Assembly: GCA_903844785.1 (NCBI GenBank)
Contig: CAIMVB010000033.1
Location: 1 to 30,510, forward strand
Source: an uncultured Rhodospirillales bacterium
GTDB taxonomy: Bacteria; Pseudomonadota; Alphaproteobacteria; Acetobacterales; Acetobacteraceae
Direction of reading: 5' to 3'
Length of the DNA stretch: 30,510 nt
Part shown: one piece after another, positions 4,481 to 7,323 of the stretch
How the letters are laid out: each line of letters starts with the position of its first letter
How positions within the stretch are numbered: position 1 is the stretch's first letter
Program-made: the position numbers and the translations under genes
The notes under the pieces: generated by a model
What the model was told of the DNA's origin: nothing
Seen by the model: only the letters and a program-made list of their open reading frames with translations
Database searches by the model: none

Positions 4481-5448
4481 CAGTTCAGCTTCTCGATCTT
4501 GTTGACCTCAACCACTTCGCGCCAGCGGGCGATTTCGGACCGCACATGGGCGGCGAAACGCTCGGGCGGGCCGCCTTCGGGGCGCACACCAAGATCGGCG
4601 AATTTGCGCCGCACTTCCGCGTCGGCCAGCGCTTCATTGAGCAGGCGGCTGAGGCCAGCCACTACAGCATCGGGCGTGCCGCGCGGGGCCATGAAGCCGA
4701 ACCAGGGTTCGACAACAATATCCGGGATGCCGGCTTCGGCGAAGGTGGGCACATCTGGCAAGGATGGGTCACGTTCCCGCCCTGTGACCGCCAGCGCGCG
4801 GATTTGCCCGGCGCGGATGGCCTGCACCTTGGTTGGGATGTTTTCCATCATCACCTGCACCTGGCCAGCAAGTAGCGCCTGCAAGGCCGGCGCGCCGCCG
4901 CGGAAAGGCACATGCACCAGCGTGAGGCCAAGCCGGCCATTCAGCAATTCCGGGATCAGATGGTTGGAAGACCCAAAGCCTGAGGAGCCGTAATTCACCT
5001 TGCCCGGATTGGCCTTCACCCAGGCGATGAATTCCTGAAGATTGCGCGCCGGCACATCATTATTCACCGCCACCGCATTCATGACACTGCCGGACCAGAA
5101 AACCGGGATCAGGTCCCGTTCAATGTCATAAGGCATACGGGCATAAATGGCCGGGTTGATGGCGCAATTGCCGATGGTACAGGCGCCAAGCGTATAGCCA
5201 TCTGGCGCGCTTTTCGCCGCCGCATCCATGCCGATATTGCCATTGGCGCCGGAGCGGTTTTCGATCACCCAAGGATGCGCGGTGCTGCGGCTGACGCGAT
5301 CCGCCAGGATGCGCCCAACCAAATCGGTGGACCCGCCCGGCGGGAAGGGCAGAATGATGCGCACTGGGCGGTCTGGGACCCAGCCCTGCGCCATGGCAAG
5401 CCCAGGCAGGCAAAGGGCGAAAATACTAAGCGCAATCCGGCGTAGCAT
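4480..5448 (-). CDS. Bug/TctC family tripartite tricarboxylate transporter substrate-binding protein
   Basis: The 322-residue periplasmic binding protein has a signal peptide of about 20 residues (cleavage after AMA). The mature start, WVPDRPVRIILPFPPGGSTD, is the hallmark of Bug receptors: the beta strand and the PFPPGGSTD loop that grips a ligand carboxylate. A second family feature is the YGSSGFGSSNH stretch in the middle. AGGAGG at 5456-5461, 7 nt upstream, fixes the start. Bug proteins bind small carboxylates or amides for TctAB membrane subunits, but no tctA or tctB gene is in the window, so it is an orphan receptor here. It is first in a block with a coupled 2-hydroxyacid dehydrogenase. 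Ligand unknown. Confidence 0.95.
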   Translation of the reverse strand: MLRRIALSIFALCLPGLAMAQGWVPDRPVRIILPFPPGGSTDLVGRILADRVSRSTAHPWVIENRSGANGNIGMDAAAKSAPDGYTLGACTIGNCAINPAIYARMPYDIERDLIPVFWSGSVMNAVAVNNDVPARNLQEFIAWVKANPGKVNYGSSGFGSSNHLIPELLNGRLGLTLVHVPFRGGAPALQALLAGQVQVMMENIPTKVQAIRAGQIRALAVTGRERDPSLPDVPTFAEAGIPDIVVEPWFGFMAPRGTPDAVVAGLSRLLNEALADAEVRRKFADLGVRPEGGPPERFAAHVRSEIARWREVVEVNKIEKLN

Positions 5449-5521
5449 GGGGGTTCCTCCTGATTCTTTGGGGTCAGGCTGCCCGTGAACGCGGCCCTTC
5501 GCAAGCCAGCCCGAAAGATGC

Positions 5522-5551
5522 TTGCCTACAAAGCGCTTCAGGCATTATGAT
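5522..5551 (+). promoter_or_regulatory. Candidate sigma-70 promoter of the leuA leader
   Basis: A -35-like TTGCCT (5522-5527) and a good -10 TATGAT (5546-5551) are separated by 18 bp. A start about 7 nt after the -10 falls on or next to the A of the leader ATG at 5558, so the transcript would be leaderless. The -10 box is five of six to consensus and the -35 is weak. Confidence 0.5.
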
Positions 5552-5557
5552 GCGCCT

Positions 5558-5659
5558 ATGCGTGAGGTTTCGCGTCGCACCGGCCTGTCCTTTGGGGTTT
5601 CCGCCCCGGCTGTCGCTTGCGCGCTACTTGGGCTTCGACTTATCCGCCCCTGGGCGTGA
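5558..5659 (+). CDS. Leucine-codon leader peptide upstream of leuA (putative LeuL)
   Basis: A 33-codon ORF, ATG 5558-5560 to TGA 5657-5659, ends 83 nt before leuA. Near its end are four leucine codons within six: CTA CTT (5624-5629), CTT (5633-5635), CTT (5639-5641), in the peptide stretch ALLGLRLIRPWA. Its last codons and stop lie inside the left arm and start of a stable hairpin (5647-5693). That arrangement, with control codons a ribosome's width upstream of a hairpin before a biosynthetic gene, is how attenuation leaders are built. There is no visible Shine-Dalgarno; the candidate promoter would start the mRNA at the ATG, as known for trpL of Sinorhizobium meliloti. A competing 60-codon ORF (5547-5729) in another frame begins inside the -10 box and is rejected. 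Existence of the ORF is direct; its regulatory role is inference. Confidence 0.6.
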   Translation: MREVSRRTGLSFGVSAPAVACALLGLRLIRPWA

Positions 5660-5693
5660 AAGCCTGCCGCGCGCGGCAAGCATCGCTCAGGGG
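5647..5693 (+). promoter_or_regulatory. leuA leader hairpin
   Basis: A 10-bp stem (5647-5656 with 5684-5693, one G-U) encloses the 14-nt palindrome 5665-5678. The left arm overlaps the leader peptide's last codons. No U-run follows, so it is not an intrinsic terminator. Its right arm bases 5686-5691 (CTCAGG) can also pair with CCTGAG at 5725-5730, at the leuA Shine-Dalgarno. Confidence 0.55.
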
Positions 5694-5726
5694 AAGCCCT
5701 TCATGCCACGCAACCCATTGAACGCC

Positions 5727-5740
5727 TGAGGAAAGCCTCA
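5727..5740 (+). promoter_or_regulatory. leuA ribosome binding site within a small hairpin
   Basis: GAGGAAAG (5728-5735) is the likely Shine-Dalgarno for the ATG at 5743. It lies in a 5-bp hairpin, TGAGG (5727-5731) with CCTCA (5736-5740) around an AAAG loop. It could also pair upstream with 5686-5691, giving a way to switch leuA translation. Confidence 0.5.
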
Positions 5741-5742
5741 TC

Positions 5743-7323
5743 ATGGCCATTAACCACCCCTCTTTCGGCAAGCTGGCCGATAACCGCATCATCATGTTCG
5801 ACACCACGCTGCGCGATGGTGAACAATCCCCTGGTTTTTCCATGAACCTCCAGGAAAAGCTCCGCATGGCGGAAGCGCTGGCGGAATTGGGGATTGATGT
5901 GATGGAAGCGGGCTTCCCCATCGCCTCGCCGGGGGATTTTGAAAGCGTGCAGTCCATCGCTGAGCGCTTTTCCAAGGACGGCCCGGTGATTTGCGGCCTG
6001 TCGCGCACCGCGCCCGCCGATATCCTGCGCGCCGCGGAAGCGGTGAAGCCGGCGGCACGCAAGCGCATCCATACCTTTGTCTCGACCAGCCCCTTGCATA
6101 TGCGGGTAAAACTGCGGCTTGAACCGGAACAGGTGCTGGAACTGGTTACCAGCAGTGTGGGTCTCGCCCGCCAGCATACGGATGATGTGGAATGGTCGGC
6201 GGAAGATGGCACGCGGACGGACCCGGATTTCCTCTGCCGCTGTGTGGAAGCCGCCATCAAGGCCGGCGCCACCACCATCAATATCCCGGACACGGTCGGT
6301 TACGCCCTGCCGGAAGACATGACCCGCATCTTCACCATGGTGCGCGAACGTGTGCCGGGCGCGGATCAGGTGATCCTGTCGGCCCATAATCACAATGACC
6401 TTGGCCTGGCGGTCGCCAATACGCTGGCCGCCATTCGCGCCGGGGTGCGCCAGATTGAAGCCACCATCAATGGCATTGGCGAACGCGCAGGCAATGCTTC
6501 GATCGAAGAAGTCGTGATGGCGCTGCGGACCCGGGCGGATGCGATCCCGGTTTCGAATGGGATTGTGACGCAAAATATCCTGAAGACCAGCCGCTTGCTG
6601 GCGACCATCACGGGCTTTGATGTGCAGCCCAATAAGGCGATTGTCGGCCGCAATGCCTTCGCCCATGAAAGCGGCATCCATCAGGATGGCGTGCTGAAGG
6701 ATAAATCCACCTATGAGATCATGACACCGGAAAGCGTGGGCTGGTCCACATCATCCCTTGTCATGGGCAAGCATTCCGGCCGTGCCGCCTTCCGCGATAA
6801 GTTGAAGGCCATGGGCTATGAGATTGGTGACAACCAATTGAACGACGCCTTCCGCCGCTTCAAGGACCTCGCGGACCGCAAGAAGGTGGTCTACGACGAA
6901 GATATTGTGGCGCTGGTTGATGATGAAGTGGTCCGCCAGAATGATAGGCTGAAGCTGCTGGCACTGACGGTTGCGACGGGGATGAATACCCGCCCGACTG
7001 CCTCCATCGCCTTGGAAGTGGATGGCGAAAGGCGTGAAGGGGTCGCCGCCGGGGATGGCGCGGTGGATGCCACCTTCAATGCGCTCCGGCAGGCTTTCCC
7101 GCATGAGGTGAATTTGAAGCTCTATGCCGTGCAATCGGTCACGGGGGGCACGGATGCCCAGGCGCGCGTCACGGTAAGGCTCGAAGAAGCGGGCAAGCTG
7201 GTGGATGGCCAGGGGGCGGATACGGATACCATCGTCGCCTCCGCCCGGGCCTATGTCCATGCGCTGAACAAGCTTCTGGTCAAGCGCGAACGCACGGAAC
7301 CGCCCGCCGTTCTGCGCGCCTGA
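5743..7323 (+). CDS. leuA: 2-isopropylmalate synthase
   Basis: LeuA condenses acetyl-CoA with 2-oxoisovalerate to 2-isopropylmalate, the first committed step of leucine synthesis. The 526-residue length matches the long bacterial LeuA. The TIM-barrel domain (about 15-285) opens with FDTTLRDGEQSPG, holding an acid for the divalent metal and the catalytic Arg. The metal-binding HNH pair is His215/His217 in SAHNHNDLG, and NGIGERAGN follows. The C-terminal leucine-sensing regulatory domain (about 390-510) is complete, so feedback inhibition is expected. It stands alone, 83 nt after the leader ORF; leuB and leuCD are not in the window. A hairpin (7328-7370) follows the stop immediately. Confidence 0.97.
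   Translation: MAINHPSFGKLADNRIIMFDTTLRDGEQSPGFSMNLQEKLRMAEALAELGIDVMEAGFPIASPGDFESVQSIAERFSKDGPVICGLSRTAPADILRAAEAVKPAARKRIHTFVSTSPLHMRVKLRLEPEQVLELVTSSVGLARQHTDDVEWSAEDGTRTDPDFLCRCVEAAIKAGATTINIPDTVGYALPEDMTRIFTMVRERVPGADQVILSAHNHNDLGLAVANTLAAIRAGVRQIEATINGIGERAGNASIEEVVMALRTRADAIPVSNGIVTQNILKTSRLLATITGFDVQPNKAIVGRNAFAHESGIHQDGVLKDKSTYEIMTPESVGWSTSSLVMGKHSGRAAFRDKLKAMGYEIGDNQLNDAFRRFKDLADRKKVVYDEDIVALVDDEVVRQNDRLKLLALTVATGMNTRPTASIALEVDGERREGVAAGDGAVDATFNALRQAFPHEVNLKLYAVQSVTGGTDAQARVTVRLEEAGKLVDGQGADTDTIVASARAYVHALNKLLVKRERTEPPAVLRA

Follow-up and report, generated by a model that had tools for sequence, protein, structure and literature searches.

The leuA gene in the window (the whole 30,510-nucleotide stretch of DNA that was analysed) is preceded by a short ORF, here called leuL. 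The best explanation is that leuL is a leucine leader peptide gene and that ribosome stalling in the leader would cause translational attenuation of leuA, and we give this reading a probability of about 60%. As far as sequence comparison can tell, it holds that a conserved leucine leader stands before leuA, that it is widespread in the class, and that its leucine codons would at the same time pair with the ribosome-binding region of leuA. Leucine would thereby control leuA through leuL. In addition, it is well supported by promoter geometry that the leuL transcript of the Acetobacteraceae is probably leaderless or nearly so (0-4 nt 5′UTR).

Results

The features of the locus are listed in Table 1. 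The leuL ORF starts with the ATG at 5558-5560, includes 33 sense codons and ends with the TGA at 5657-5659. Four of the six codons at 5624-5641 encode leucine, and leuL thus has what is expected of a leader sensed by the ribosome, namely clustered leucine codons in a short, frame-conserved ORF before a leucine biosynthesis gene. The two promoter hexamers are separated by 18 bp, and 6 nt lie between TATGAT and the ATG, so that the transcription start is predicted at or adjoining 5558. A sigma-70-type scan of 361 bp on both strands found this promoter and no other, compared with a mean of 0.1 in shuffled sequences. The 33-codon ORF, the four leucine codons in six and the promoter with its 18-bp spacer had all been put forward in the original prediction, and all are present in the sequence as described there. 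That prediction also let the ORF end at the base of a hairpin at 5647-5693. The hairpin (P1) was recovered; however, the last leuL codons form its 5′ arm, and the TGA lies just inside its loop.

Table 1. Positions of the features around leuL and leuA in the window
Feature	Position	Strand	Basis
-35 hexamer TTGCCT	5522..5527	+	Direct sequence; sigma-70-type promoter scan; TTG kept in relatives
-10 hexamer TATGAT	5546..5551	+	Sequence; promoter scan; relatives
leuL, putative leucine leader ORF (33 codons and TGA)	5558..5659	+	Sequence; frame kept in relatives
Regulatory codons CTA CTT GGG CTT CGA CTT	5624..5641	+	Sequence; conservation of CTT-CGA-CTT
P0, 5627-5633 with 5724-5730 and 5634-5638 with 5718-5722	5627..5730	+	Duplex prediction
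P1b, GGGCTT 5630-5635 with AAGCCC 5694-5699	5630..5699	+	Folds of the window's clade; extends P1
Hairpin P1, 5647-5656 with 5684-5693	5647..5693	+	Fold and covariation
P4, TGAGG-AAAG-CCTCA, 5727-5731 with 5736-5740, holding the leuA Shine-Dalgarno	5727..5740	+	Clade comparison
Shine-Dalgarno GAGGA of leuA	5728..5732	+	Sequence
leuA, 2-isopropylmalate synthase	5743..7323	+	NCBIfam NF002087, NF002086 and TIGR00973, all above cut-offs

The next gene after leuA in the window is mreB. Judged by the nearest named loci, among the best 80 of 197 relatives, the window comes from a Roseomonas-like genome of the Acetobacteraceae. Rfam 15 gave no match at the gathering score across the window. When matches up to E 10 were admitted in the region 5400-5800, there were five weak ones, all on the opposite strand and all to small RNA families of eukaryotes or archaea.

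For the comparison with near relatives, we collected 110 loci, namely the best 80 of 197 relatives in named genome records and 30 relatives from whole-genome sets, with some contigs in both. Three loci lacked usable sequence upstream of leuA (L017, L018, and L103) and were left out. The remaining 107 leuA upstream regions gave 75 non-redundant ones at 93% identity. This family set was used for the duplex, second-hairpin, and T-run analyses, and 62 of its loci were used for Shine-Dalgarno accessibility. It includes five loci from other families; in the frame and promoter counts these are moved, so that those counts refer to 70 loci placed in the Acetobacteraceae or close kin and to 87 loci class-wide.

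The leader block was located by the pattern CTY-nnn-nnC-CCY-TRR, in which the last leucine codon may be CTT or CTC. It was found at the expected place in 107/107 upstream regions, and no region was lost. Rubritepida flocculans (L025) is one cultured relative with the element. Its usual form is CTT-CGA-CTT-Ann-CGC-CCC followed by TGG or TGA, and then comes a strand complementary to the last part of the block. The original prediction would have failed if related leuA genes lacked a leucine-rich ORF at this place, and among near relatives such an ORF was present without exception. Class-wide the conservation is incomplete, and 61 of the 148 LeuA genomes showed no element (see below).

The reading frame is also conserved. 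An in-frame ATG 24-180 nt upstream is joined to the leucine codons without a stop in 67/70 relatives, while the other two frames are joined in just 18 and 6 of the 70. The same holds class-wide, with 72/87 for the leucine frame and 10 and 15 for the others. On these counts an overlapping 60-residue ORF at 5547-5729 was rejected. Furthermore, the last leucine codon is CTT in 70/70 relatives of the Acetobacteraceae type, and the codon before it is CGA in 69/70 of them and in 51/87 loci class-wide. For comparison, CGA serves none of the 66 arginines and CTT 10 of the 76 leucines in leuA and mreB of the window. The frame counts and the conservation of CTT and CGA together exclude a chance ORF. The leader stop comes six codons after the last leucine in 60/75 loci (via TGG GCG, as in the window) and four codons after it in 15/75. 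Proline is the third codon past the last leucine in 70/70 and 87/87 loci; this count is not independent, because the locating pattern asks for proline. The base after the last leucine codon (5642 in the window) is A in 61/70 and 79/87 loci, while the codon that it opens stands for different residues (T, S, I, R, N, M, and others). This suggests that the RNA is constrained beyond the needs of the peptide.

Next to the start of leuL, a TANNNT box lies 5-10 nt ahead of the in-frame ATG in 61/67 relatives of the Acetobacteraceae type. At displacements of 20, 30, 40, and 50 nt, the same 67 members had 1, 5, 0, and 1 such boxes. A TTG follows at 16-19 nt upstream of the box in 58 of the 61 relatives that have it. 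Before the leader ATG, there was no Shine-Dalgarno match of at least 5 in any of these 61 loci, and a match of 4 in 10 of them; at the leuA starts of the family, by comparison, the match was at least 4 in 55/67 and at least 5 in 17/67. The leaderless geometry that had been claimed for the window is therefore a property of the family, and by sequence prediction both the window and its family combine a promoter that places the start at the ATG with the lack of a Shine-Dalgarno sequence. The distance between the box and the ATG is 6-8 nt in 35/61 and 9-10 nt in 26/61 loci, and the latter suggests that some transcripts may carry a 5′UTR of 2-4 nt. In Gluconobacter oxydans, which belongs to the same family, a reported start-site mapping worked with a distance of 3-11 nt from the -10 box to the start site, and 62 mRNAs with a 5′UTR of at most 3 nt were classed as leaderless (PMC5756330).

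In the rest of the class, such a box was found in 5/72 loci, which is background (6, 5, 4, and 9 in the displaced controls). Thus, the leader is widespread, and the leaderless start is a family feature in our sample. It might be argued that the leader is genuine but not leaderless, with its main promoter further upstream. The background level elsewhere in the class speaks for this, because it means that the leader can work without a leaderless start. Nevertheless, the box in 61 of 67 family members, the TTG in nearly all of these and the missing Shine-Dalgarno match of at least 5 before the leader ATG make an upstream main promoter quite improbable.

Distribution of the leader

A covariance model built from the leucine codons and P1 was searched in 289 genomes of the class, and it matched in 87 of them at E 0.01 (90 matches). 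Outside the window there were 89 matches, and 84 of them had a LeuA-like frame downstream on the same strand, with its alignment starting 12-405 nt past the match. The other five (L170, L187, L201, L203, and L205) had no LeuA behind them and were treated as chance. Among the 84 LeuA-like frames, 77 have 55-71% identity and seven have 23-31%. These seven divergent loci with the leader element upstream are L113, L119, L131, L135, L138, L180, and L194. Three of them were scanned (L113, L131, and L135), and all three exceed the curated cut-off for 2-isopropylmalate synthases of the yeast type. The yeast type is the usual LeuA type in Actinobacteria. Since the element also precedes divergent LeuA, of yeast type in the three scanned cases, it seems to follow the leucine pathway and not one gene lineage. 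A query with the yeast-type LeuA family, aimed at actinobacterial loci, returned only loci of the window's own genome. From the 84 class-wide LeuA loci, L169 and L194 lost the pattern; 79 loci entered the shuffle ranking, 77 the permutation, second-hairpin, and T-run analyses, and 67 the analysis of Shine-Dalgarno accessibility.

Counted from the gene, this LeuA is present (E 1e-120) in 148 of the 289 genomes, and the element lies at most 500 nt upstream in 78 of them, which represent 49 of 79 families. An unfiltered search of the remaining 70 genomes found the element in another nine (E 0.001, leuA strand), giving a total of 87/148. In the other 61, no element reached E 0.001 in the unfiltered search; for one of them, L240, the reason is that the contig stops at this point. 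Within a phylum set of 299 genomes, whose number from other classes is not stated, 55 genomes had a match at E 0.001, and all of them were members of this class. The window's own genome has one strong site for the model. The next best of its six hits (G000 C20:4554-4611, E 0.03) was rejected as a second copy, and it falls inside a coding frame, which we take to be that of a tRNA thiouridylase.

RNA structure

The support for structure between leuL and leuA is comparative, as 5558-5745 on its own does not fold in an unusual way (z -1.30, and 21 of 200 shuffled sequences were as stable or more so). P1 was aligned in 50 of the 58 listed segments. Across these 50 sequences 97.0% of 500 cells are paired, 11 cells are changed on both sides, and none of 500 shuffles was as high on either measure. 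P1b occurs in the minimum-energy folds of 12 of the 13 members of the window's clade and in the clade's alifold consensus. Meanwhile, the four core pairs of P4 are intact in 44/44 cells of 11 distinct clade sequences, with eight cells changed on both sides, and none of 500 shuffles was as high on both measures. It should be noted that the double-sided changes in P4 concern two varying pairs in four sequences and may represent few independent events.

P0 would join the leucine codons to the leuA ribosome-binding region, and its duplex in the window is predicted at -16.1 kcal/mol. When P0 was forced on 5615-5760, the fold reached -46.8 kcal/mol, compared with -54.7 kcal/mol for the best fold, so that P0 falls 8 kcal/mol short and is not the favoured structure in the window. 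The best fold there uses P1b and P4 instead.

Among the relatives, however, the complementarity behind P0 is supported. Class-wide (77 loci), the leucine run pairs with its own leuA ribosome-binding region at -16.22 kcal/mol versus -13.21 (sd 0.34) with those of other genomes of similar GC content, and in the family set (75 loci) the values are -13.57 versus -12.32 kcal/mol (sd 0.24). In each set, none of 2000 GC-binned permutations showed an own-region preference as strong. The own pairing was better than the GC-matched mean in 59/75 loci class-wide and in 45/74 of the family set, while a control segment 30 nt upstream in the leader showed no own-region preference (41/75 and 32/74). In the family set, this GC-rich control segment pairs more strongly in absolute terms (-17.47) than the leucine run, and only the specificity differs. 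Against dinucleotide shuffles, the rank was at most 0.05 in 30/79 loci class-wide and 17/75 of the family set, and the own region was better than its reversed form in 55/79 and 41/75, respectively. With just 41/75 against the reversed region and 17/75 against shuffles, the signal in the family set is the weaker one. The paired positions of the family set peak 14 to 11 nt upstream of the leuA start, where the Shine-Dalgarno sequence sits.

In addition, we found that blocking the leucine run raised the predicted mean accessibility of the Shine-Dalgarno sequence from 0.148 to 0.305 in 62 family loci and from 0.211 to 0.453 in 67 class-wide loci. There was no such rise with a ribosome placed 35 nt upstream instead (0.140 and 0.252). 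Counted by locus, blocking the run increased accessibility by more than 0.1 in 31/62 and 42/67 and decreased it in 1 and 5; with the upstream ribosome it went up in 3 and 13 and down in 4 and 5. In the window itself, accessibility is about 0.20 in the free state and in all five ribosome-covered states, and stalling is not predicted to release the site. Another choice of segment and Shine-Dalgarno gave 0.05 free and 0.01 stalled, and L001 and L003 behaved alike. The pairing of the leucine run with the Shine-Dalgarno region is thus supported class-wide; in the window it is weak and not part of the favoured fold.

Discussion

That the leucine run is specifically complementary to the ribosome-binding region of its own leuA speaks for translational attenuation rather than for a terminator switch. 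We propose the following course. In the Acetobacteraceae, the promoter would put the 5′ end at the leuL ATG or a few bases before it, and the ribosome would therefore load without a Shine-Dalgarno sequence. When leucyl-tRNA is short, it would stall at the cluster CTT/CGA/CTT; when leucine is sufficient, it would run on, stop in P1 and leave. Comparison across the class shows that the leucine-codon run is at the same time antisense to the ribosome-binding region of leuA. A stalled ribosome would free the leuA start, and finished translation would let P0 and P1 close it. In the clade of the window, the leader and P1 are kept and P0 is weak, and P4 is added over the Shine-Dalgarno sequence, so that the last step may differ there. 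In this clade, Rho may be used, or P4 may be too weak in the cell to matter.

In classical transcription attenuation, P1 would be the antiterminator and a second hairpin, in which sequence further downstream pairs with the 3′ arm of P1, the terminator; alternatively, P1 itself would be a terminator masked by the stalled ribosome. A stop codon adjoining the arm of P1 is the classic geometry for this, and the family set has a weak second-hairpin signal (mean z -0.77; rank at most 0.05 in 13/75). However, the signal is absent class-wide (z +0.24; 2/77), and 150 of the 152 loci, the window included, have no T-run right behind P1. At least 5 T in the 8 bases right after P1 were found in 2/77 loci class-wide and 0/75 of the family set. 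The exceptions are L185, a locus of the same family from an AT-rich genome with eight T after P1, and L112; in both, P1 looks like an intrinsic terminator. Apart from these two relatives, exclusive hairpins with a terminator and its U-run were not found. Since T-runs are rare and there is no second-hairpin signal class-wide, we rejected a switch between P1 and such a hairpin (P2) as the general mechanism, and transcription attenuation in either form seems rather unlikely for the window. Rho-dependent attenuation would do without these structures. Once the leader ribosome is gone, the untranslated stretch 5660-5742 would be open to Rho, which a stalled ribosome or P1 would prevent. This fits a conserved leader stop without a terminator and would also work where P4 holds the Shine-Dalgarno sequence, which is the case in the window; moreover, Rho has been suggested for actinobacterial cys leaders by the authors of that work (PMC1262725). 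Nevertheless, it leaves the specific complementarity of the leucine codons to the leuA ribosome-binding region unexplained, and we consider it unlikely.

The conserved C-terminus L-R/L-L-x-x-P (followed by the stop or by WA and the stop) also brings to mind a nascent-chain arrest peptide, which would stall by its sequence and not by tRNA charging. The very frequent arginine before the last leucine would suit such a peptide, and so would the invariant proline, with the reservation that the pattern requires it. However, the proline codon sits in the arm of P1, the arginine codon is CGA with one CGG, and arginine is often replaced by leucine outside the family. A near-uniform CGA, together with an A after the last leucine codon in front of varying residues, indicates a constraint on bases and codons, and an arrest peptide is very improbable. 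Translational attenuation by stalling at leucine codons remains the reading that we prefer.

A literature search that did not extend to the central comparative study of attenuators in proteobacteria (Vitreschak and others 2004) found no alphaproteobacterial leuA leader, and one may have been published. Two broader surveys do not name leuA in the parts covered (PMC2965389, PMC10219788). Other leaders are on record, such as an ilv leader described in Caulobacter (PMC4117421), an ilvB leader mentioned for Alphaproteobacteria (PMC1273637) and leucine leaders before leuA in Corynebacterium (PMC4046766, PMC5784534, PMC3890552).

The original prediction knew of no leaderless leader for leuA. This does not stand, because LeuL1 before leuA of Streptomyces lividans is reported to be leaderless and to have no typical Rho-independent terminator, and the paper states that similar cases were described among leuA leaders elsewhere in the Actinobacteria (PMC8079986). 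LeuL1 resembles leuL in being a leucine-rich leader ORF before leuA with a leaderless transcript and no typical terminator, and its peptide, MRFGLLLLSCRGEGL, is similar to alphaproteobacterial endings such as LLLLSCP in L078 and L115; however, it is actinobacterial and has 15 residues, compared with 33 in leuL of the window (PMC8079986). What would be new is thus the alphaproteobacterial leuA leader and its probably leaderless form in the Acetobacteraceae, while leaderless leuA leaders as such are already reported from Streptomyces (PMC8079986).

In the actinobacterial LEU element, a run of leucine codons in the leader is likewise described as pairing with the Shine-Dalgarno box of leuA (PMC1262725). 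However, that element is described with a conserved pseudoknot, and the involvement of a regulatory protein seemed likely to its authors (PMC1262725); in the window, by contrast, the base stem is weak. Leader mutations at actinobacterial leuA are reported not to fit classical attenuation, and the authors did not settle how the LEU element works (PMC1262725). peTrpL/rnTrpL of Sinorhizobium meliloti is also a leaderless alphaproteobacterial leader, with translation reported from Ribo-seq, but it senses tryptophan and stems from the tryptophan attenuator, whereas leuL carries leucine codons and has no terminator (PMC10117765). LeuL of Campylobacter jejuni is a leucine leader of 28 residues before leuABCD with rare leucine codons near its C-terminus, and its start is reported from initiation-site profiling; it differs in having been found via ORFs with a ribosome-binding site and in an RNA reported to end shortly after the stop (PMC3847290, PMC11955535).

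It is conceivable, and we offer it tentatively, that Alphaproteobacteria and Actinobacteria have one leucine-sensing leader in common, whose leucine codons are antisense to the ribosome-binding site of leuA. This leader would have remained with the leucine pathway while the LeuA type behind it was swapped between bacterial and yeast, and it would have become leaderless in the Acetobacteraceae. The present comparison adds a widespread alphaproteobacterial leuA leader, without an Rfam match in the window and probably leaderless in one family, and it offers a way to approach the LEU element of Actinobacteria by comparison (PMC1262725). In addition, loci with and without the leaderless geometry form a natural series for asking why some leader peptides have no Shine-Dalgarno sequence. 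The choice of the codons CTT and CGA may be read both as a ribosome brake and as an antisense strand.

A further complementarity was seen near the start of the leader. GGTT at 5566-5569 and GCGT at 5572-5575 are complementary to ACGCAACC at 5708-5715. The block at 5708-5715 does not vary among 12 clade members, and the leader block 5566-5575 is near-invariant, with one G to A change in L002, L007, and L008. The two blocks pair in four of the five ribosome-covered folds of 5558-5760.
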